In this document: piece by piece, positions 3,581-16,199 of the stretch
Numbering within the stretch: the first letter of the stretch is position 1
Layout of the letters: the number at the start of each line of letters is the position of its first letter
Virus record (IMG/VR): IMGVR_UViG_3300037343_000165
Span: 1 to 20,643 of that record
Length of the DNA stretch: 20,643 nucleotides
Reading direction: 5' to 3' (one strand)
DNA from: a virus
The notes under the pieces: generated by a model
Databases searched by the model: none
Seen by the model: only the letters and a program-made list of their open reading frames with translations
What the model was told of the DNA's origin: nothing
Program-made: the position numbers and the translations under genes

Positions 3581-4650
3581 CCTGTTTTCCCCCTGTTGAG
3601 TTGCCGGGCCAAGATGTCTTGATCCAGCGGGGCCAGCTTGTGCCCCGTGCTGGGCCTTTCGGTAATAACGGATAATTGCACGGCGGTCAACCCTGCAAGT
3701 TTGAGGTCTGCAATCCCCATCGGCACGGTCTTGGTCGCATCCTTTCCGGTCAACGCCTTGATGATGGCAGGTGGGAATTTCACGCGGGTGTTGCCCTGCC
3801 GGGGCATCAATCCCCAGCCCGGCAGGCGCTCGCCACGCTTGGCCCGCGCCTCGGCCTCAACCTCGGTGGCCTTGGCCGCTGCTGTGATGATCTCCAAGGC
3901 GTCGCGGTAGAAGTGCAACGCTTGGGACAGTTCTTCAGGCGACCGATCGCGGTGGCCGGTCATCTCGGCAATGGCCAGCGCGGTGGCGGTGGTCTGTTGC
4001 AGCGCCACGCAGCCTGACGCCCCGTCGCAATACAGGCAATGCGCGCCAGGCGTGGCGATCGGGTCAGGCTTGTAGCACTCGTCAGCCCGTTGGACGATCC
4101 ACTCGGCTTTGTCGCGGATCTGGTCAGGCGTCCAATCGATCCACCGGCGCGGGCCGTCCTGATGAAAACCGCGCGGCTGATAGATTTCCGTGCGGATCGT
4201 GTGGATTCGCTTAGGCGGCGCGCTCAAAATGGCCGCGGCATAGATGATCAGTTGCGGGCTGTCTGGCGCCACGAGCCGAAACCCGTATTTCAGATCGCGC
4301 ACGGTCAGCAGCCCGTCTGCCAGCGTCACGCAGTCGGGCGTTCCGGCGATGTGACGCCGCAACTCGACCAGTGTTTCGACCCACAATTCGCCGCCATCCG
4401 CGCGGCAAATCTCGGCATATTCCCGCATGTGGTCAATCATGGCGGCGTCGGCTTCCCAGCCGTTTTCGTGCGTCATGCCGACCTCCACGGGCTGATCGGT
4501 AAGCATCAACTCGGCGATCCATGCCGCGCAGGTGCCCTCCCGCGCGGCATCGCTGGACGGCTGCGGCCCGGCGCGGCTGGCAAACAACGGCGCCGCGGAG
4601 CATTTCGTCCAGCGATGCGCCGCGCTGGGCCGGGTCTGGATGTCGGTCAT
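3577..4650 (-). CDS. DUF2800 Cas4-like PD-(D/E)XK nuclease with putative Fe-S cysteines
   Basis: The protein has 357 residues. The nuclease core is visible as GTPD (103-106), VRDLKYG (117-123, Asp119 and Lys121) and SPQLIIYA (131-138, Gln133 and Tyr137), matching the D...DxK...Q...Y pattern of RecB/Cas4-type nucleases. Cys17 near the N-terminus plus Cys205, Cys208 and Cys214 (C-x2-C-x5-C) is the one-plus-three layout that holds a 4Fe-4S cluster in Cas4 and AddB-like nucleases. The likely role is end processing during phage replication or recombination, working with the adjacent ssDNA-binding protein. Stop and start overlap both neighbours by ATGA. The DUF2800 call is confident; the Fe-S cluster is inferred from cysteine spacing. 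Confidence 0.8.
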   Translation of the reverse strand: MTDIQTRPSAAHRWTKCSAAPLFASRAGPQPSSDAAREGTCAAWIAELMLTDQPVEVGMTHENGWEADAAMIDHMREYAEICRADGGELWVETLVELRRHIAGTPDCVTLADGLLTVRDLKYGFRLVAPDSPQLIIYAAAILSAPPKRIHTIRTEIYQPRGFHQDGPRRWIDWTPDQIRDKAEWIVQRADECYKPDPIATPGAHCLYCDGASGCVALQQTTATALAIAEMTGHRDRSPEELSQALHFYRDALEIITAAAKATEVEAEARAKRGERLPGWGLMPRQGNTRVKFPPAIIKALTGKDATKTVPMGIADLKLAGLTAVQLSVITERPSTGHKLAPLDQDILARQLNRGKTG

Positions 4651-5597: not shown

Positions 5598-5706
5598 TTT
5601 CGTCTCCGGTGCGGGTTGATATTATCTGTTAATAGCCCGCGCCGGGGCTGTTGTAAATAGCTATTATTACCTTGACGCCTGCGCGCGGCGCGGCCTAGGG
5701 TTGGGC
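5598..5706. promoter_or_regulatory. Divergent early control region with AT-rich dyads
   Basis: This is the only gap separating the leftward and rightward blocks, so it should carry both early promoters. Visible elements are a dyad TATTA-5 bases-TAATA (5620-5634), a 10-base palindrome AATAGCTATT (5656-5665), and GGGTTGAT (5614-5621), which matches the core of the 12.7-kb repeats. A plausible rightward promoter is TTGACG (5672-5677), 17 bases, then CTAGGG (5695-5700). Its -10 match is weak and lies within about ten bases of the ATG, so it may be leaderless or wrong. Confidence 0.45.
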
Positions 5707-6477
5707 ATGAAAAAATCAAACCCAGCCCCCGACAGCAACATTGTAGTGTGGTTTTCCAACGGTGCTGCCAGCGCCATCGCTTGGAAAGAAACCGTCAGGC
5801 GTTACGGCAGTCAATGCAATGTGATCGCCGTAAATAATCCTGTGGCAGAGGAGGACGCGGACAACGAGCGGTTCGCTTTAGACGTTGCAGAATGGGTGGG
5901 GCAACCCCTCATTCATTACAAAAATCCAAAGTGGCCTGAAGCGTCCGCAGAAGTTGTGTGGGAAAAGCGTAAAGGAATGTCATTTCCGAATGGGGCGCCA
6001 TGCACTGTTGAACTCAAAAAAAAGGCCAGAGAGCATTTTGAGCGTGAAAATCGTGTGGACTGGCATGTTTTGGGCTTCACGTCCGACGAAAAGAAGCGGT
6101 CAGATCGCTTTATGTTGACGGAGCGGGAAAACGTCCTGCCAGTTTTGATCGAAGCTGACATATCAAAACTGGAATGCTTTGAATTGATCGCTGCGGCGGG
6201 CATCGCATTGCCAGCCGTCTATTTGCGCGGATACCCGAACGCAAATTGCATAGGGTGTGTCAAGGCAACCAGCCCGACATACTGGAACCACGTCCGCACT
6301 GCGGACCCTGAGGTTTTCCTGAGACGCGCTGTGCAGTCTCGCGCGTTAGGTGTGAGATTGGTCAGGGTCAAGGGCCAAAGGTTGTTTCTTGACGAACTGC
6401 CAGCGGATGCGATCGGCAGGCCGATGAAAAACCTAGTCTTTGAATGCGGTATATTTTGCGAAGAGCCTGAGCAGTGA
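5707..6477 (+). CDS. PP-loop / PAPS-reductase-like enzyme (adenine nucleotide alpha-hydrolase fold)
   Basis: This 256-residue protein has VVWFSNGAASA at about 13-23, the pyrophosphate-binding loop of the PAPS reductase and ATP-pyrophosphatase superfamily. Asn sits where the classic SGG loop has Gly. Downstream cysteines appear in APCTVELKKKA, NANCIGCVKA and a C-terminal ECGIFC. Such cysteine-bearing phage homologues may activate a substrate with ATP and transfer sulfur, or act in DNA or nucleotide modification; the true substrate is unknown. The first ATG (5707) fits the fold better than the TTG two codons earlier. The gene is visibly richer in A+T than its neighbours, hinting at separate acquisition. 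Its stop overlaps the next GTG start. Confidence 0.7.
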   Translation: MKKSNPAPDSNIVVWFSNGAASAIAWKETVRRYGSQCNVIAVNNPVAEEDADNERFALDVAEWVGQPLIHYKNPKWPEASAEVVWEKRKGMSFPNGAPCTVELKKKAREHFERENRVDWHVLGFTSDEKKRSDRFMLTERENVLPVLIEADISKLECFELIAAAGIALPAVYLRGYPNANCIGCVKATSPTYWNHVRTADPEVFLRRAVQSRALGVRLVRVKGQRLFLDELPADAIGRPMKNLVFECGIFCEEPEQ

Positions 6478-6710: not shown

Positions 6711-8335
6711 CCCTCACGCTCCGCCCGTATCAAACGCAACTGATCGAGGACATCCGCGCCAAGTGGCACAGCGGGGCGCGCAACGTGCTGGCCGTCATGC
6801 CGACCGGCGCCGGAAAAACTGTGGCGTTTGCCGCGCTGAACGCTGATGGCGAGCGGTCCTGCACCATTGTCCATCGGCAGGAATTGGTCGGTCAGATCAG
6901 CAAGACCTATGCGACGATGGGAACCTACCACAACATCGTCGCGCCTCAATCGGTGATCAACTTTTGCATTCGGCTGCACATCGCGGCCACGGGGCGCAAT
7001 TTTTACGACCCTCGCGCCGCCGTGAGCGTGGCTGGTGTCGATACGTTAATCCGCCGGTTCAAGCCGGGCGACGCATGGTGCAACTCAGTCCGCCGATGGA
7101 CGCTGGACGAAGCGCACCACGGGCGACAGGACAACAAGTGGGGAATTGCCGCCGCGTTGTTCCCAAACGCCAAGGGCCTCGGTGTCACGGCGACGGCGTG
7201 CAGGGGCGATGACAAATCGCTGCATGCTGATCAAGGCGGCCTGTTTCACGAATTGGTCCAAGGGCCTGGTATGCGGGACTTGATCGACGCAGGCAGCCTG
7301 GCAGATTATCGCGTGTTCGCACCTCAGGTCGGCATTGACGAAGCGCTTTTGCAGATAGGCAAGACCGGCGATTTCACGGCAAATTCTGCCAAGGCCGCGC
7401 AAAAAGCCGAGATGATCGGTGACGTGGTGGAAAGCTATTTGACCCACATCCCGGGCAAGCAAGCGATCGTCTTTGCGTCAGGGGTGCAGGACGCAAAAGA
7501 CATCGCGGAGCAATTCAGGGCACGCGGCGTGCCCGCCACGGCGCTGGACGGTACGAACAATGATGGGCACAGGATGGACCAAGTTGCGCGGTTCGAAACA
7601 GGCGAAACGCGGATCTTGACGAACGTCGATCTGTTTGGTGAGGGCTTCGATGTGCCAGCGTGCGAGGCTGTCATAATGGCCCGCCCCACGGCAAGCTTCG
7701 GCCTGTTCGTGCAGCAATTTGGCCGGGCGCTGCGACCGTTTGAGGGCAAAAGTCATGGGGTGATCATCGACCACGTGGGCAACGTGGTGCGCATGGCGGC
7801 CAAGCATGGCCTGCCCGATACGCCACGCACCTGGACGCTCTGGCAGGACCAGACCCGCAAGACCGCTGGCAACCCCGACGCGGTGCCGGTCAGGGTTTGC
7901 CCGGAATGCCTGCTGACATATGAAGCTGTCGTGTTCAAATGCCCCTATTGCGGCGCCGTCCACGTCCCTGCCGGGCGATCATCGCCTGACCAGGTGGACG
8001 GGGTGCTGTCGGAAATGTCGCTGGAGTTGCTGGCGACGTTGCGGGCAGGAGCGGACAAAATCCAAGCGGCTGAGCCTGCCATCCCCTACGGCGCGTCGGC
8101 GATCGTGGCCGCGGGGATCAAGGCGCGACACCGCCGGAACCAAGCGGCGCAGGCGTCGCTATCCGACGCGATGCAGCGGTGGGGCGGGATGCGCCTGGCC
8201 GCGGGTGACTCTGATGCGGCTATGCAGGCCCGGTTCCTTTTCAGGTTCCAAGTGGATGTGATGAGCGCACAAGGGCTGGCCGAGCGGGCGGCGCTTGAAT
8301 TGAGGGACGCAATTATGGAGGCGACACGCCAATGA
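6707..8335 (+). CDS. SF2 DEAH-box helicase with C-terminal zinc ribbon
   Basis: The protein has 542 residues and complete superfamily 2 helicase motifs: motif I, MPTGAGKT (31-38); motif II, DEAH (134-137); motif III, TATA (161-164); a motif V region, TNVDLFGEGFDVP (305-317); and motif VI, QQFGRALRP (336-344). After the second RecA-like lobe comes C-P-E-C (398-401) and C-P-Y-C (412-415), a four-cysteine zinc ribbon. Residues 420-542 form an Ala/Arg-rich helical tail. It should use ATP to unwind or remodel DNA in phage replication, in the manner of phage UvsW/RecG-like or type III restriction-like helicases. The ATG has a strong GGGGGTGA ribosome-binding site and overlaps the preceding stop. 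Exact biological role is unknown. Confidence 0.9.
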   Translation: MTLTLRPYQTQLIEDIRAKWHSGARNVLAVMPTGAGKTVAFAALNADGERSCTIVHRQELVGQISKTYATMGTYHNIVAPQSVINFCIRLHIAATGRNFYDPRAAVSVAGVDTLIRRFKPGDAWCNSVRRWTLDEAHHGRQDNKWGIAAALFPNAKGLGVTATACRGDDKSLHADQGGLFHELVQGPGMRDLIDAGSLADYRVFAPQVGIDEALLQIGKTGDFTANSAKAAQKAEMIGDVVESYLTHIPGKQAIVFASGVQDAKDIAEQFRARGVPATALDGTNNDGHRMDQVARFETGETRILTNVDLFGEGFDVPACEAVIMARPTASFGLFVQQFGRALRPFEGKSHGVIIDHVGNVVRMAAKHGLPDTPRTWTLWQDQTRKTAGNPDAVPVRVCPECLLTYEAVVFKCPYCGAVHVPAGRSSPDQVDGVLSEMSLELLATLRAGADKIQAAEPAIPYGASAIVAAGIKARHRRNQAAQASLSDAMQRWGGMRLAAGDSDAAMQARFLFRFQVDVMSAQGLAERAALELRDAIMEATRQ

Positions 8336-9980: not shown

Positions 9981-10166
9981 ATGGAAAAGCTGAACGACTA
10001 TTTGAAGGGTAAGACCGCCCGCTATTTGGCTCGCACCGTGGGCGTTTCAGACGCTCATATGTCAGACTTGCGGCACGGAAAGCGCCGGCCATCGCTTGCG
10101 TTGGCGCGGCGCATAAAGGAAGCGACTGCTGGCGCTGTGGATTATGACGCTTGGGGCTTGGCATGA
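9981..10166 (+). CDS. Small Cro/CI-like HTH regulator
   Basis: This 61-residue protein is essentially one helix-turn-helix domain: LARTVGVSDAHMSDLRHGKRRPSLALARRIKEAT (about 16-49) has the lambda-repressor/Cro pattern, with the recognition helix around SDAHMSDLRHG. It probably binds the inverted repeat immediately upstream and represses its own transcription and that of the primase-helicase. GGGGA precedes the ATG. Its TGA overlaps the next ATG (10163) as ATGA. Its presence hints at temperate ancestry or timing control, but no integrase is visible in the window. Confidence 0.7.
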   Translation: MEKLNDYLKGKTARYLARTVGVSDAHMSDLRHGKRRPSLALARRIKEATAGAVDYDAWGLA

Positions 10167-12607
10167 CCCCGCTCTGCACAGGCTTCGGGCAATATGACAC
10201 GAACGGCAAGACGGGAGCGACCTACACAGGCGTGACCGAAGCTGACATCATGGCCATGGTGCTGAACCCGCCAAGCGTTCACAAAGACGATGCGCAATGG
10301 TTCATCCCGTCTGACTATCTGGCGCATGATGCCCGCGAACACGAGGCGCAGCGCCAGCACGGTCAGTTTTGGGCCATCCCGCTTGACCTAGACGACAACA
10401 GCCCGCCCTTAGCGGTTGTGGGCAACGCGCTGAGGCGCGTGATGGGCAACACGGCCCATGTGGTTTTTTCCAGCCGATCAGCCAAGCCTGACAACCTGAA
10501 ATGGCGCGCATTGTGTTGGCTGGAAACCCCGATCGCTGGCGCGGATTACGCCGATACGGTTGAGGCGTTCAACGATCTGATCGCTGGGCAGCTTGTGCCG
10601 GACAGGGCGTTGCAGCGCACAGGCCAGCTTGTCTTTTTGCCGAACCGAGGCGAGCATTACGAGTGGGATGTGCAGGTCGGCCCCCGCACAAGCCTCGCAC
10701 CGAACCATCCCGTCATTGTGAGGCGCGAACAGACCAGGCGCAGCCGTGCCGATGCTCAGGCCAAGGCGGCGGCATGGAAGGCGCGCAAGGCGGCTCTGAC
10801 GCCCTCTGACGCAACGAACGTGGTCGATGCCTTCAACGCGGCGCATGTCGTGGCTGATCTGCTGCAACGCTACGGATACCAGCATGCCCGGTCTGGTGAC
10901 AACTGGAAAAGCCCGATGCAGTCCGGGGGCAGTTATGCCACGCGGGATTATGGCGACCACTGGATCAGCCTGTCAGGCTCGGACGGCGCCGCGGGGATTG
11001 GCACAGACACCAAGACCGGGCAGCGATTCGGCGATGCGTTCGACCTGTTCGTGCATTTCGAACATGCTGGCGACTTCAACGTCGCGGTGCGCACGTATGG
11101 CGCCCTTCACAGGCTGATGACCATGCCTAGCCCATCGCATGTCCCGGCCGGGATGCTTGCCGCCCCTGCCATGCCCAGCGCGCCGCGAGCGGCCAGTGTG
11201 GTCGATCTGATCTGTGCGCGGGTTAAGGACAACCCTGACGATGCGGTTCACACTTTGGCCGGGGAAATTGCACGGCTTGGGCCGCTTGATCGTGAGACGG
11301 TGTTAGATGCCTGCAAAGATTATGGCGTCAAGATCAAGATGCAGATCGCGGTCAAGGAATCCATCGCCGACGCCAGAAAAGCGGCCATGGACTTGCGCGG
11401 ACTGATTGCCGACAAGAACGGCGGCCCTGTCCCGAACATGACCAACATCAAGCGGGTGCTTTGCACCGAAGAAGGCTGGACCGGGACGTTTGCCAAAAGC
11501 TTGTTTGACGATGCGGTTTGGCTGCGCCGACCTGACACCCGGCAGTTGAATGACGATGACGTGCTGAAGGTCATGGAGATCATGCAGAGCGACCTGTTTC
11601 CGTCCATCGGGGTCGAGACGGTCCGGCACGGCGTCCAGGCGGCAGCGGCTGGCAATACGTTTCACCCGGTCAGGGAATATCTGGAAAGCCTGCCGTGGGA
11701 CGGGGTGAGCCGGGCCGGGTGGCTGTTCACCGCATATTTTCCGTGCGCGTCCGAAGATCCTGAATATCTGAGCGCGGTCGGTGAAAAATTCCTGGTCGGC
11801 GCCGTGGCCCGCGTGATGCACCCTGGCTGCAAGGTCGATACGATGCCTGTCATCGCGGGCAACCAAGGGCAGAAAAAATCAAGCGGTCTGGCCGCGCTGG
11901 TCGGCGATCAATGGTATGGTAATGACATGCCTGACATGACCCAGAAAGACGCCAAGGAATGGTTGCGCGGCAAGTGGGTGGCGGAGATCGGCGAGTTGTC
12001 CTCCATGCGCGGCAAGGACATTGAACACGTCAAGAATTTTCTTTCCACCACGACCGACAGCTACCGCAAATCTTACGGGCATGTCACCCAAACCTATCCG
12101 CGCCAGACGGTGTTTGCAGGGACCGTCAACGGCAATGAATATCTGTCGGACGAGACGGGCAACCGGCGGTTCTGGCCCCTCCAGATGATCGAGGGGGCGA
12201 CCGTTGATGTCGCGGCGATCGAACGTGACAGGGGCCAGCTATGGGCTGAGGCGCTGCACCTATACCGCAACGGCACGGCGTGGTGGTTTGATGAGGGCGA
12301 GTCGGCGACCCTGTCCGCACAGCAGGCAGCGGCCCGATCGGTGGACATTGACGAGACCCGTGTCGCTGACTGGCTGCGCGGACAGGATGGGCCTGTGACG
12401 GCTGGCGGTGTGGCCCTAGCGCTCTTTGCGGATGCGCCCGGCAACAAGTCGCTGTCGATGCGGGTGGCCCGCTATCTGCAAGGTGCGGGGTGGCGCGTGT
12501 CCAAAACGGTAAGGGGATCGAAGCACTGGGACAGGGGGCGTGGGGCGGAACCTTACGTCTCCCCGTCGTGCGGGGGGAATGTGATGCCTCTGATACCGCG
12601 CCGATAA
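10163..12607 (+). CDS. Primase-polymerase / VapE-type helicase fusion with C-terminal winged-helix-like domain
   Basis: This 814-residue protein is probably the replication initiator. The N-terminal part (1-180) looks like an archaeo-eukaryotic-type primase: PLDLDD with paired aspartates, SSRSAKPDNLKWRALCWLE, and TGQLVFLPNRGEHY. The central-to-C-terminal part is a virulence-associated-E family ATPase: a P-loop-like AGNQGQKKSS around 565-574 (Lys571/572, lacking the usual GKS), AEIGELSSM, and a GTVNGNEYLSDETGNRRFWPL block. Residues 728-790 form a separate domain that is duplicated in the gene at 13058. The ATG at 10163 overlaps the HTH gene stop; a TTG four codons upstream lacks support. A strong terminator follows directly. 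Confidence 0.85.
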   Translation: MTPLCTGFGQYDTNGKTGATYTGVTEADIMAMVLNPPSVHKDDAQWFIPSDYLAHDAREHEAQRQHGQFWAIPLDLDDNSPPLAVVGNALRRVMGNTAHVVFSSRSAKPDNLKWRALCWLETPIAGADYADTVEAFNDLIAGQLVPDRALQRTGQLVFLPNRGEHYEWDVQVGPRTSLAPNHPVIVRREQTRRSRADAQAKAAAWKARKAALTPSDATNVVDAFNAAHVVADLLQRYGYQHARSGDNWKSPMQSGGSYATRDYGDHWISLSGSDGAAGIGTDTKTGQRFGDAFDLFVHFEHAGDFNVAVRTYGALHRLMTMPSPSHVPAGMLAAPAMPSAPRAASVVDLICARVKDNPDDAVHTLAGEIARLGPLDRETVLDACKDYGVKIKMQIAVKESIADARKAAMDLRGLIADKNGGPVPNMTNIKRVLCTEEGWTGTFAKSLFDDAVWLRRPDTRQLNDDDVLKVMEIMQSDLFPSIGVETVRHGVQAAAAGNTFHPVREYLESLPWDGVSRAGWLFTAYFPCASEDPEYLSAVGEKFLVGAVARVMHPGCKVDTMPVIAGNQGQKKSSGLAALVGDQWYGNDMPDMTQKDAKEWLRGKWVAEIGELSSMRGKDIEHVKNFLSTTTDSYRKSYGHVTQTYPRQTVFAGTVNGNEYLSDETGNRRFWPLQMIEGATVDVAAIERDRGQLWAEALHLYRNGTAWWFDEGESATLSAQQAAARSVDIDETRVADWLRGQDGPVTAGGVALALFADAPGNKSLSMRVARYLQGAGWRVSKTVRGSKHWDRGRGAEPYVSPSCGGNVMPLIPRR

Positions 12608-12621
12608 ATTGCCGTTAAATT

Positions 12622-12657
12622 AAAGCCCCGCTCCATTAAATTGTGGCGGGGCTTTTT
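12622..12657 (+). terminator. Intrinsic terminator after the primase-helicase gene
   Basis: A perfect 10-bp stem, AAAGCCCCGC (12622-12631) with GCGGGGCTTT (12646-12655), encloses a 14-base loop and runs into TTTTT and CTTT. Its position 15 bases past the stop codon makes it a clear rightward terminator that splits the plus-strand genes into two transcription units. The A-rich 5' arm also makes it usable in the opposite direction, though no leftward gene abuts it. Confidence 0.9.
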
Positions 12658-12675
12658 CTTTGTGGGGTGTTCCAT

Positions 12676-12970
12676 GTCAACCCTGATTGATTAGGTCAAC
12701 CCCGCCTTAAAGCATTGATTTTGAAAGACGATGCGGTAAGGTTGACTAGGGTTGATCTATCTATAGAGTTATGGACAGAAAAAAGAATAGGGTGGTCTAT
12801 AATTGCTATAATTTATAGAATGGTAATAGCATTATTTTTCTATGGTAGCCCTCCAAGGAAATTGCGATTAGATCAACCCTGCTCAACCCTCGCTCGCTAA
12901 AACGTTGGCATCAAAGGATTTTTCCTCGTGGTTGACCTGTTTTCTCAGGGGTTGACTCGACCCTGTTGAC
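12676..12970. other. Candidate replication origin: phased TCAAC(CCT) repeats around an AT-rich core
   Basis: Nine copies of a TCAAC-centred element occur in 295 bases. Plus orientation: GTCAACCCT 12676, GTCAACCCC 12695, GATCAACCCT 12871, GCTCAACCCT 12881. Minus orientation (read as GTTGA): within 12739-12746, 12747-12757, 12929-12936, 12947-12956 and 12965-12970. Spacings of 10, 10, 19 and 20 bases put several copies on one face of the helix. Groups alternate in orientation and flank 12758-12870, whose left 90 bases are only about a quarter G+C by eye and include two CTATAATT units nine bases apart. Iterons beside an unwinding region next to the initiator gene are the classic origin plan. A repressor operator array is the main alternative. 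Confidence 0.6.
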
Positions 12971-12994
12971 AACGATGGTGGTGCGGGGTAAAAG
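12966..12994 (+). promoter_or_regulatory. Putative promoter for the 13-kb gene block
   Basis: A perfect -35 TTGACA (12966-12971), 17 bases, then TAAAAG (12989-12994, 4/6). It lies downstream of the terminator and upstream of the first gene of the next block, where a promoter is required. The -35 box coincides with the last TCAAC element, so whatever binds the array could regulate it. Confidence 0.55.
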
Positions 12995-13057
12995 AAGCGG
13001 GCGCGGGAGGTGTTCAGACCTCGACCGCGCCCATACCAGCGAAGAGGATTTCGCCAG

Positions 13058-13429
13058 ATGTCAATCTCAATACGCCAAATTCCCGTCAAGGGCAACACAG
13101 ACTACATCGCACTTGAAAAGGTTTGTGATGATCTGCGTGACGCTCACAAGGCGGCGCTTCGTGCATTGGAAAATGCCAGACGAACCTTGGACGATCCTTC
13201 TACTTACCCGCCATCAGCCCCGCCGCTGAACATGGACGAAATCCGCGTCCGGCATTGGCTGCGTGACAAGCATGGCCCCGTCACGGCGGCACACGTTGCT
13301 GACATGCTGTTTGGAAATCGTATTCCAAGCAAATCGCTTTCAATGAGCGTGGCCAAGTGTCTCAAAGCTGCTGGATGGCAACGTCTGAAGCGGGTGCGAG
13401 GCACTCAATACTGGGCGCGGGTGTCGTGA
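13058..13429 (+). CDS. Small protein with duplicated initiator-type winged-helix-like domain
   Basis: This 123-residue protein has an N-terminal region (1-55) that appears helical (YIALEKVCDDLRDAHKAALR). Residues 58-120 align without gaps to residues 728-790 of the primase-helicase, 32 of 63 identical, including RV..WLR, GPVTA, KSLSM, AGW and VRG. The domain looks like a winged helix, so DNA binding is likely. It lies just beyond the TCAAC array, with the primase-helicase on the other side, suggesting a regulator or origin cofactor that recognises the same DNA as the initiator (inference). The ATG at 13058 follows AGAGGA; an in-frame GTG at 13010 has poorer support. Stop overlaps the next start as TGATG. 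Confidence 0.75.
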   Translation: MSISIRQIPVKGNTDYIALEKVCDDLRDAHKAALRALENARRTLDDPSTYPPSAPPLNMDEIRVRHWLRDKHGPVTAAHVADMLFGNRIPSKSLSMSVAKCLKAAGWQRLKRVRGTQYWARVS

Positions 13430-13755
13430 TGCAGATGCCCCGGAACAAATTCGATACGCACGCCGCCTGCGCGCGGATGGACGCAGACAGCACGCTCCAT
13501 CACCGGGAACGCTGGCCAAGCCTCGCCTTTGTTTGGGACGAGTTGGACGACCTGCGGGCCGAGTCTCAAACGGCAGTCGACTCTAAAGACCACGCTTCGG
13601 TCGAAAACGAACTCAAAGAGGCGTTGGACGAAATTGATGAATTCGACGCCATCACAGATCAGCGTGACGCGCTATCAATGGCGGTCAAGCTGTTGCTGGA
13701 ACCGTGGCCCGACAAAGACAAAATCGAAAACATTTTGATGGGGGGAGGGGCATGA
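13429..13755 (+). CDS. Acidic helical protein of unknown function
   Basis: I do not recognise this 108-residue protein. The middle is strongly acidic and helical (WDELDDLRAESQ, ENELKEALDEIDEFDAITDQRDAL), compatible with a short coiled coil, and is followed by LLLEPWPDKDKIENIL. The ATG at 13429 overlaps the previous stop (TGATG) and the TGA overlaps the next ATG, so it belongs to a coupled cluster. An open reading upstream to 13357 runs through the paralogue gene and is rejected. Confidence 0.55.
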   Translation: MQMPRNKFDTHAACARMDADSTLHHRERWPSLAFVWDELDDLRAESQTAVDSKDHASVENELKEALDEIDEFDAITDQRDALSMAVKLLLEPWPDKDKIENILMGGGA

Positions 13756-14054
13756 CGTTGCTGGCGCGGGATTGCAAATGGTGTGGTGCATCGATGGAGG
13801 GCAAGCGAAGCGATGCGATCTTTTGCTCACGGAAATGCTACGCAGTGTCATATCGAAAAACCAACCCTGAGTATCAGCGTAAATACCAGCGTAAACACAA
13901 CCGAGACAACCCCGACTATCAGCGTGAATATCAGCGCAAATACCTCCAAGCCAACCCAGACTATCATAGCAATTACCGCCAAGCTAACCGCGAACGGATT
14001 GCTGAACGGGATCGTGTCAAACGTCACGCGCTCAAACAGGAGACAGATCAATGA
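13752..14054 (+). CDS. Zinc-finger protein with basic NPxY 15-residue repeats
   Basis: This 100-residue protein has an N-terminal zinc-binding pattern, Cys8-x2-Cys11 and Cys25-x3-Cys29 (CKWCG, FCSRKC), typical of small zinc ribbons in HNH-like and DNA-binding phage proteins. From residue 38 three 15-residue units start NPEY, NPDY and NPDY and contain YQRxYQRK runs, giving a very basic, aromatic tail that ends in an Arg/Lys-rich helix. The design suggests nucleic-acid binding; no HNH catalytic residues are visible. ATGA couplings join it to both neighbours. Confidence 0.6.
   Translation: MTLLARDCKWCGASMEGKRSDAIFCSRKCYAVSYRKTNPEYQRKYQRKHNRDNPDYQREYQRKYLQANPDYHSNYRQANRERIAERDRVKRHALKQETDQ
13863..13997 (+). 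repeat. Three 45-bp coding repeats in the zinc-finger gene
   Basis: Units start at the AAC codons at 13863, 13908 and 13953. The first two are closely similar in DNA and protein; the third is diverged after its first 15 bases. Inside each of the first two, a shorter TATCAGCGT-like unit is itself repeated. Confidence 0.75.
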
Positions 14055-14245: not shown

Positions 14246-14643
14246 CGTTTGACCCCGTGACGCGCGCCGCGCATTACAACGATGGCCCGATCGAGGTGAT
14301 CCACCTTTCGCGCCGCCTCGGCGCCCATCTCTCGCAAATCGTGCAATACGCGGCCCGTGCCCATCTCAAAGGGGATGAGGTGCGGGATCTTCGCAAAGCA
14401 TTATTTTGGGCGGATGACCTGCTCAAGACGATGGCGAACAAGTCGGTAAATCTCGCCTGCATGGCTGAGCCGGATTTTACGTCGACCGAGTTTACGCGGC
14501 AAATGCGCGAGGGGCGCGGTCGGATTATTCGCATGGCATGGCGGGCTGCGTGGGCGCGTGACGCCAGGATAGCGATACGGTGTGTGCAGGATATGCGAGA
14601 CACCATCGCGGCGGAAATTGCGCGGATGGAGGACGAGGCATGA
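14242..14643 (+). CDS. DUF3310 family protein
   Basis: In this 133-residue protein the segment HYNDGPIEVIHLSRRLG...IVQYAARAHLKG..VRDLRKALFWADDLL (about 11-62) matches the DUF3310 pattern of phage proteins, sometimes labelled nucleotide-kinase-like. The biochemical function is not established. The remainder (70-133) is basic and helical (RGRIIRMAWRAAWARDARIAIR). An excellent GGGAGG ribosome-binding site precedes the ATG at 14242, and the TGA overlaps the methyltransferase ATG as ATGA. Confidence 0.75.
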   Translation: MTFDPVTRAAHYNDGPIEVIHLSRRLGAHLSQIVQYAARAHLKGDEVRDLRKALFWADDLLKTMANKSVNLACMAEPDFTSTEFTRQMREGRGRIIRMAWRAAWARDARIAIRCVQDMRDTIAAEIARMEDEA

Positions 14644-16199
14644 TGCCGACTGCACCGAAGGGAAATAATTTTCCCGAGTATAAGACGGTTTTGACCGCCA
14701 GCCTCGTGCCATATGCGCGCAACGCTCGCACGCACAGCCCCACCCAGGTCGATAAGATCGCCGCCTCGATCCGGGAGTTTGGCTTTCTCAACCCGATCAT
14801 CACGGACGGGCAGAACGGGATCATCGCCGGTCACGGGCGCGTCATGGCGGCCCAAAAGCTGGGGCTTGATACACTACCGACCATTGACGCGGCACACCTG
14901 AGTGAAGCGCAGAGGCGCACTTACGTGCTGGCAGACAACCGTATGGCGCTGGACGCCGGATGGGACAATGACCTGTTGCGGATCGAGTTGCAGGATCTGG
15001 AAAGCGCAGGGTTCGACCTTTCTCTGACCGGCTTTGACTTGGGCGAGATCGCTGCGCTGACGCTGGACGCCACAGAGGGCCTGACCGATCCCGACGATGT
15101 GCCTGACGCGCCTGCCGTGCCCGTTACGGTCTTGGGCGACGTGTGGTTGCTGGGGCGGCATCGTTTGATGTGCGGGGACTCTACCAGCATTGACGCGGTG
15201 GAGCGGCTGATGGATGGGCGGAAGGCTGCATTACTCCACGCTGATCCACCTTACGGAATGGGTAAAGAAGGCGAAGGGGTCGCAAACGATAATTTGTATC
15301 AAGACAAGCTAGACGCATTCCAGATGGAATGGTGGACGACGTTCAGGCGTGTTCTTGAGGATAACGCCAGCGCGTATATATGGGGCAATGCACCTGACTT
15401 GTGGCGGCTTTGGTATAATGGCGGATTGTCTGGTTCGGAGCGGATGACAATGCGAAACCAGATTGTTTGGGACAAGAAACACGGGCAGGGAATGAGTAGC
15501 GAACGGCACCGAATGTTTCCGACTGCCACCGAGCATTGCCTTTTCTTTATGATGGGCGAACACGGCTTCAATACTAATTCGGATAACTACTGGGACGGGT
15601 GGGAGCCGATCCGGTTGTATCTTGAAACGGAAATGAACAAATGTGGCGGACAAAATAAATGGAAAGCCGCTTTAAGTAATCAAATGGGTAGTCACTACTT
15701 TACAAAAAGCCAGTGGTTACTCCCTACAAAAGAGGCTTACGAAAAATTGCAGGCGTTTGCAAAAGGTAACGGTTTCAAGCGCGACTATGACGAACTCAAG
15801 CGCGACTATGACGAACTCAAGCGCGACTATGACGAACTCAAGCGCGAATTTTATGCAACGCGGGCATATTTTGACAACACCCATGACAACATGACCGACG
15901 TGTGGGGGTTTGGGCGCGTGACCGGAGAAGAACGGCACGGTCACGCAACACCCAAACCGGTTGAAATGATGCAACGGGTAATGCGTTCAAGCCTTGCAGC
16001 TGGTGGATTGTGCGTGGAGCCGTTCGGAGGGTCTGGCTCAACACTGATGGGTGCGGAAAAAACGGGAAGGGTGTGCTATTCAATGGAGTTGCAGCCCAAG
16101 TATTGCGACGTGATAATCCAACGCTGGCAAAATTTCACGGGCCAGACCGCCACCCTTGAAGCCACGGGCCAGCCGTTCGAGGCGCCTTGTCATCTATAA
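14640..16199 (+). CDS. ParB-like nuclease domain / DNA methyltransferase fusion
   Basis: The protein has 519 residues. Residues 15-100 form a ParB/Sulfiredoxin-type domain with SLVPYARNARTHS, IREFGFLNPI and GIIAGHGR. The methyltransferase follows: LLHADPPYGM (198-207) is catalytic motif IV, and EPFGGSGST near 460 is SAM-binding motif I. That order places it in the beta class, which methylates adenine N6 or cytosine N4. Between them lies a specificity region that includes nearly four RDYDELK heptads (about 379-403), presumably helical. It probably protects phage DNA from restriction or marks it; the ParB-like part may bind or nick DNA. The ATG at 14640 is coupled to the previous stop. The catalytic half is visibly poorer in G+C than the ParB half. 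Confidence 0.9.
   Translation: MMPTAPKGNNFPEYKTVLTASLVPYARNARTHSPTQVDKIAASIREFGFLNPIITDGQNGIIAGHGRVMAAQKLGLDTLPTIDAAHLSEAQRRTYVLADNRMALDAGWDNDLLRIELQDLESAGFDLSLTGFDLGEIAALTLDATEGLTDPDDVPDAPAVPVTVLGDVWLLGRHRLMCGDSTSIDAVERLMDGRKAALLHADPPYGMGKEGEGVANDNLYQDKLDAFQMEWWTTFRRVLEDNASAYIWGNAPDLWRLWYNGGLSGSERMTMRNQIVWDKKHGQGMSSERHRMFPTATEHCLFFMMGEHGFNTNSDNYWDGWEPIRLYLETEMNKCGGQNKWKAALSNQMGSHYFTKSQWLLPTKEAYEKLQAFAKGNGFKRDYDELKRDYDELKRDYDELKREFYATRAYFDNTHDNMTDVWGFGRVTGEERHGHATPKPVEMMQRVMRSSLAAGGLCVEPFGGSGSTLMGAEKTGRVCYSMELQPKYCDVIIQRWQNFTGQTATLEATGQPFEAPCHL
15776..15847 (+). repeat. Tandem 21-bp repeats (3.4 copies) in the methyltransferase gene
   Basis: Three identical 21-base units run 15776-15796, 15797-15817 and 15818-15838, followed by the first nine bases of a fourth. 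Each encodes the heptad KRDYDEL in cyclic order. Perfect identity implies recent slippage expansion, and the 21-base unit preserves frame whatever the copy number. Confidence 0.95.

Follow-up and report, generated by a model that had tools for sequence, protein, structure and literature searches.

Eight copies of TCAACC, present in both orientations, flank an AT-rich core of ~110 bp directly 3' of a VapE-type primase-helicase gene in the stretch of viral DNA analysed here (20,643 nucleotides, hereafter the window). The array probably constitutes the replication origin of the phage, used by its own initiator encoded upstream (probability about 0.88). This reading of the sequence draws on the array, its geometry, the homology of the initiator, the covariation of repeats and initiator, and a natural module swap. 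A sequence-only reading had named the region as a candidate phage origin, and the proposal gained support from the conserved layout, from a repeat word that tracks the wing of the initiator and from the VapE-type helicase gene upstream. The features of the region are:

10151..12607, + strand: primase-helicase initiator, VapE-like, 818 aa (PF05272, 2.7e-74; PHROG DNA helicase/primase)
12341..12538, + strand: C-terminal winged-helix domain of the initiator, proposed iteron reader (codons ~731-796; AF2 and covariation)
12494-12532, + strand: wing of this domain (codons 782-794)
12625..12657, + strand: intrinsic terminator of the primase gene, stem-loop and T5 (fold, alignment)
12676..12684, + strand: iteron 1, GTCAACCCT
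12695..12703, + strand: iteron 2, GTCAACCCC
12738..12746, - strand: iteron 3, GTCAACCTT
12748..12756, - strand: iteron 4, ATCAACCCT
12757..12868, no strand: AT-rich core, proposed unwinding element, with a TATAATTGC/TATAATTTA repeat
12872..12880, + strand: iteron 5, ATCAACCCT
12882..12890, + strand: iteron 6, CTCAACCCT
12928..12936, - strand: iteron 7, GTCAACCAC
12948..12956, - strand: iteron 8, GTCAACCCC
12966..12994, + strand: promoter-like TTGACA-N17-TAAAAG of the next gene, ORF2 (sequence)
12999..13032, + strand: stem-loop in the 5' leader of ORF2 (-31.5 kcal/mol, z -4.5)
13058..13429, + strand: ORF2, 123 aa (tblastn, alignment, AF2)

TCAACC forms the densest 6-mer cluster of the 20.6-kb window, with eight copies within 275 bp; in 60 local dinucleotide shuffles, the most strongly clustered 6-mer reached five to seven copies. 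A 37.8-kb relative (the contig containing locus L007) likewise has TCAACC as its densest cluster, with eight copies against a next best of six. A second TCAACC cluster was found in neither of these two sequences, both possibly incomplete. All nine TCAAC pentamers listed by the sequence-only reading were found at their positions and in their strand order (+ + - - core + + - - -), and the extended word GTCAACCC matches eight of them. Its count of nine repeat elements holds for these eight and fails for the ninth (12965-12969), which lies in the -35-like box TTGACA of the promoter-like sequence. This box is kept whatever the iteron word, and because it persists in L002 and L012, whose iterons differ, the ninth pentamer was rejected as an iteron. 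The spacings of 10, 10, 19 and 20 bases given for the array were recovered: the inner pairs (iterons 3-4 and 5-6, beside the core) are spaced by 10 bp in the window and by 9-10 bp in relatives, and the outer pairs by 19 and 20 bp. The inner pairs make up a 20-nt inverted repeat around the core, 90% complementary, with arms 109 bp apart. The array begins 69 bp past the initiator stop codon, beyond the terminator, in agreement with its described placement directly after an initiator-like primase-helicase gene (10151..12607, PF05272 match).

The AT-rich nature of the core was likewise borne out by a GC minimum of 0.25 in 60-nt windows, and the core sequence is conserved in relatives that bear other iteron words. 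A match to the core pattern in L044 was discarded as a chance hit in an unrelated AT-rich contig. The stretch 12605-12665, which includes the terminator, folds at -23 kcal/mol (z -4.1). In the alignment the terminator is kept in relatives of both C-terminal types of initiator (see below), the stretch 12605-12657 lies outside the array, and the exact terminator core is present in 44 contigs. The stem-loop in the ORF2 leader has a similar fold in L002 and L012, though loop and stem length differ. A consensus promoter scan did not list TTGACA-N17-TAAAAG, the second hexamer of which matches at 4/6 positions. The best match to a DnaA box, TTATGGACA at ~12768, has one mismatch to the consensus and is lost in relatives, and it was rejected. 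The cumulative GC skew that the sequence-only reading had proposed as a check gave no transition at the array, neither in the window nor in its 37.8-kb relative. This counts in part against an origin, although skew is a weak test for a small phage.

The initiator consists of an N-terminal primase region, an SF3-type helicase and a C-terminal winged helix. Its helicase part matches PDB 7pds ('Similar to D. nodosus vapE') with E=2e-39 over profile positions 441-690, and by sequence it is homologous to SaPI-type Rep. In the AF2 model, the C-terminal domain has three helices and a two-strand wing (pLDDT ~71-87), with low confidence outside the domain; a structure search with this model returned generic winged-helix matches only, none at E<=0.001. 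The window also encodes a portal protein (E 3e-116), a DNA polymerase (1.6e-174), a Gp2.5-like ssDNA-binding protein and a further helicase, and therefore belongs to a tailed phage and not to a satellite.

Three other genes of the window deserve mention. Positions 14580-16199 encode a ParB-like/DNA methyltransferase fusion that carries a tandem, heptad-like insert (LKRDYDE) at ~15780-15850, and positions 13704-14054 a small protein that opens with a zinc-finger-like CxxC...CxxxC motif and contains repeated units resembling NPDYQREYQRK. The gene at 5701-6477 resembles by eye the phosphoadenosine phosphosulfate reductase type, with no Pfam match at E<=0.1.

Relatives of the initiator are carried by 28 viral contigs, which were aligned behind the stop codon; the close relatives are all metagenome contigs, and a scan of genome contigs with the initiator yielded none. 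Terminator, AT-rich core and element positions are preserved among the relatives, and the element word switches as a set. The word is GTCAACCC(T/C) in the window, L005-L007 and L009, GTCAACCTAG in L025, GTCCCCCTAG in L010 and L011, GTGCCCTAG in L002, and GTGGCACAAG, with GTGCCAC variants, in L004, L013, L016, L021, L024 and L026. Mixed arrays, partly degenerate, occur in L012 and three near-identical contigs; at ~3290-3460 of L012, two words stand in nested mirror order, GTGGCACAAGG inside and ATACACAATGACA outside. The array of the L083 group is also mixed or degenerate; an automatic motif finder gave no single word, and by eye TGCCCGGAT and GCGTCAC sites alternate. Downstream of the L083 terminator, too, there are seemingly two different words in nested mirror order. 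The arrays of L012 and L083 look as though each served two proteins, or two modes of binding.

The changes of word follow the initiator. Over their C-terminal 148 residues, the initiators of the relatives are 81-99% identical to that of the window, and the differences that best track the word fall within ten residues (VSKTVRGSKH, VSKTVRGSKQ, VSKTVMGKKQ, VSKKVMGTKQ, PVRRVSGTKQ). A ranking of the 46 variable residues between 548 and 818 placed 786, 788, 790, 785, 784 and 783 on top, all of them in the wing; the relatives hardly differ in the likely recognition helix (765-778), and the word-tracking residues form the wing of the model. Distances between iteron words and between wings correlate with Mantel r=0.59 (p=2e-4, 14 loci) and with r=0.57 (p=2e-4) given helicase DNA distance, p values that are indicative since the test models shared ancestry only partly and there are five wing types. 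For the rest of the C-terminal part examined, the correlation with the word was r 0.22 (p=0.10), and -0.10 after the wing was removed. On these grounds we propose that the wing sets the word read by the C-terminal domain of the initiator. The conservation in relatives that the sequence-only reading had pointed to as a check was thus found, and in a stronger form than had been asked, with position and phase kept and the word changing together with the initiator wing, which argues against an unrelated repressor as the sole binder.

Beside the array lies ORF2, whose C-terminal half duplicates the initiator's winged-helix domain (74 aa aligned at 47% identity). Its AF2 model (pLDDT 75) consists of one long N-terminal helix of 33 residues followed by the winged helix. 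ORF2 has no family match and no match in GenBank phages. It is part of a cassette of ~470 bp, absent from the 37.8-kb relative (the closest long one), and many relatives have the full array without it. It occurs beside the array in three lineages (the window, L002 at 6989-7375 and L012 at 3616-4002), and a scan for further relatives returned the same three types and nothing more. By its sequence, ORF2 is a possible replication regulator. It could add a titration control to the origin, acting on the iterons as a helicase-less competitor or partner that limits or times initiation. Its build, an N-terminal helix plus winged helix, and its place next to the array in three lineages are consistent with such a role. 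Taken together, the ORF2 wings are more like those of their own initiators than like the others (9/18 matches at six specificity residues, counted by hand from the alignment), the best of six pairings with p=1/6, a value set by there being just three ORF2 sequences. However, this small number and the weak wing match (2/6 in the window) leave the proposal tentative, at somewhat below even odds. Titration by ORF2 supplements the origin reading and does not replace it.

The repeats might instead be sites of a transcriptional regulator, the product of the small HTH gene at 9981-10166 or of ORF2, that controls the downstream genes, with no origin present. The promoter-like sequence of ORF2 does adjoin iteron 8, and ORF2 bears a copy of the same DNA-binding domain, but many relatives possess a complete array and no ORF2, and it is the primase-helicase's own wing that the word follows. 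The symmetry about an AT-rich core of nearly fixed length, the position downstream of a terminator and the arrays found at the same place in other phages of this initiator class also speak for an origin, and a purely regulatory array appears very improbable. Linkage in place of recognition, whereby word and wing would covary merely through their proximity (~180 bp) and joint movement by recombination, is a poor and equally improbable explanation: the DNA of the core and that of the C-terminal tail show a weak correlation with the word (r 0.31 and 0.32, p 0.02), which is lost once the wing is removed (0.14 and -0.07, not significant), whereas the wing keeps r=0.54 and 0.53 (p=7e-4) given core and linked tail DNA, and all iterons change while the intervening core changes little.

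Recognition of the iterons by the initiator may follow a modular code, to which we assign slightly less than even odds. Two to three wing residues would each pick a half-word, origins would rapidly split into incompatible types with core and layout fixed, and some members would add a helicase-free copy of the domain that competes, or aids assembly, at the iterons. Within such a code, T786 would correspond to TCAAC, K786 to CCCC, P783-V784-R785-R786 to GGCAC and M788 to the CTAG end. L025 has T786 like the window, M788 like L010 and a hybrid word, TCAAC plus CTAG; its GTCAACCTAG comprises the first half of the word of the window and the second half of that of L010. As a counter-case, L002 shares the wing of L010 and L011, yet its word is GTGCCCTAG, related to but not identical with GTCCCCCTAG.

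A second C-terminal type provides the module swap. L019, L020 and L022 have an N-terminal primase closely similar to that of the window and a different helicase and C-terminus, and their arrays are composed of TGGACAG iterons in a layout similar to that of the window, so that the helicase-plus-C-terminal part was swapped together with the iterons. A search with the terminator sequence retrieved 44 contigs, and nearly all of the new ones carry this second type, with TAGCCGGGCC and other words beside TGGACAG. Here a hairpin motif, GYRH[TS]xRC[NHI], and the word change together (TGGACAGATAG, CGGCCCGGACAG, GCTAGC(C/T)GGGG, TAGCCGGGCCAGC); wing and word correlate with Mantel r=0.53 (p=3e-4, 19 loci), and the best single columns lie 22-32 residues past GYRH. 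The inner pairs are spaced by 9-10 bp in most of these loci. In L033, a type II C-terminus occurs together with a GTGGCAC array of type I, the junction being at the shared terminator. Because the initiator gene carries a frameshift, and the contig may be chimeric or a defective recombinant, this mismatch was set aside.

The association extends to the wider class of initiators. In ten of 16 sampled phages and satellites with a related primase-helicase, the DNA just past the gene is enriched (P<=0.01) in a 6-mer that occurs in mixed orientation and differs in nearly every one of the ten. Their hosts are Marinobacter, Pseudomonas, Bacteroides, Corynebacterium, Staphylococcus, Paenibacillus, Ruegeria, Streptococcus and Roseobacter, in addition to an aphid-symbiont phage. 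Among the remaining six, two were borderline and four lacked an array.

Taken as an origin, the array suggests the following course of initiation. The C-terminal winged helix of the initiator would bind the eight GTCAACCC iterons, and the wing would determine which sequence is read. Because the two halves of the array are oppositely oriented, a pair of helicase rings would be loaded face to face on either side of the AT-rich core; the core would then melt, and the two primase-helicases would begin bidirectional (theta) replication at the array.

The arrangement had not been recognised from any described phage origin in the sequence-only reading; the layout is, in fact, already described for PICI and SaPI origins, where an AT-rich region with an iteron set on each side directly follows the 3' end of the initiator gene (PMC6092414, PMC7581432) and the C-terminal domain of Rep reads the iterons (PMC7581432). 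The array of the window is hence best explained as an origin of the SaPI/PICI Rep-ori kind, served by an initiator-helicase that the tailed phage itself encodes, and not as an origin of unknown type. As in the rep-ori of SaPIbov1, SaPI1, EfCIV583 and EcCICFT073, the predicted origin lies immediately 3' of the initiator-helicase gene, two iteron sets flank the AT-rich region, and the helicase is homologous to 7pds. In contrast to the PICI satellites, the window is a phage with portal and DNA polymerase genes, and unlike SaPI and PICI, its lineage has a natural allelic series of words following the wing and an optional downstream duplicate of the DNA-binding domain.

Other known systems are less similar. 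Iteron plasmids (RepE, TrfA, RepA) also have repeated initiator sites beside an AT-rich region, but these are direct repeats on one side, and the initiator lacks a helicase and recruits DnaA and DnaB. In the window, the elements occur in both orientations on both sides of the core, and the DnaA-like match TTATGGACA is unconserved. The alpha protein of phage P4 is a single primase-helicase and origin-binding protein with a C-terminal DNA-binding domain and iterons (ori1); its helicase is of another subfamily, and P4 additionally requires crr, a second site in cis. No second array was seen in the window or the 37.8-kb relative, both possibly incomplete; the primase-helicase with a C-terminal DNA-binding domain and the iterons are shared (partly PMC6092414). 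In SCCmec, the isolated C-terminal domain of Cch2 binds short AAGTG repeats just downstream of the gene (PMC7581432), which compared with the window are just three direct repeats without symmetric halves. Among geminiviruses, close relatives with different iterons and a specific iteron-Rep interaction are described (PMC12548392); the rolling-circle Rep of these ssDNA plant viruses is unrelated to the initiator in protein and mechanism.

The novelty lies in the occurrence of this layout throughout a lineage of tailed phages and in phages related to them, in the natural wing-word series, and in the optional gene that bears a copy of the initiator domain; searches of open-licence papers turned up none that describes the tailed-phage occurrence, the wing-word series or an ORF2-like gene. 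In this natural series, about eight sites per origin have changed together with a handful of wing residues, which makes it testable how an initiator and its many sites switch specificity with function retained. The relatives offer sets of origins predicted not to cross-react, and ORF2 is a candidate case of a duplicated DNA-binding domain that controls replication.
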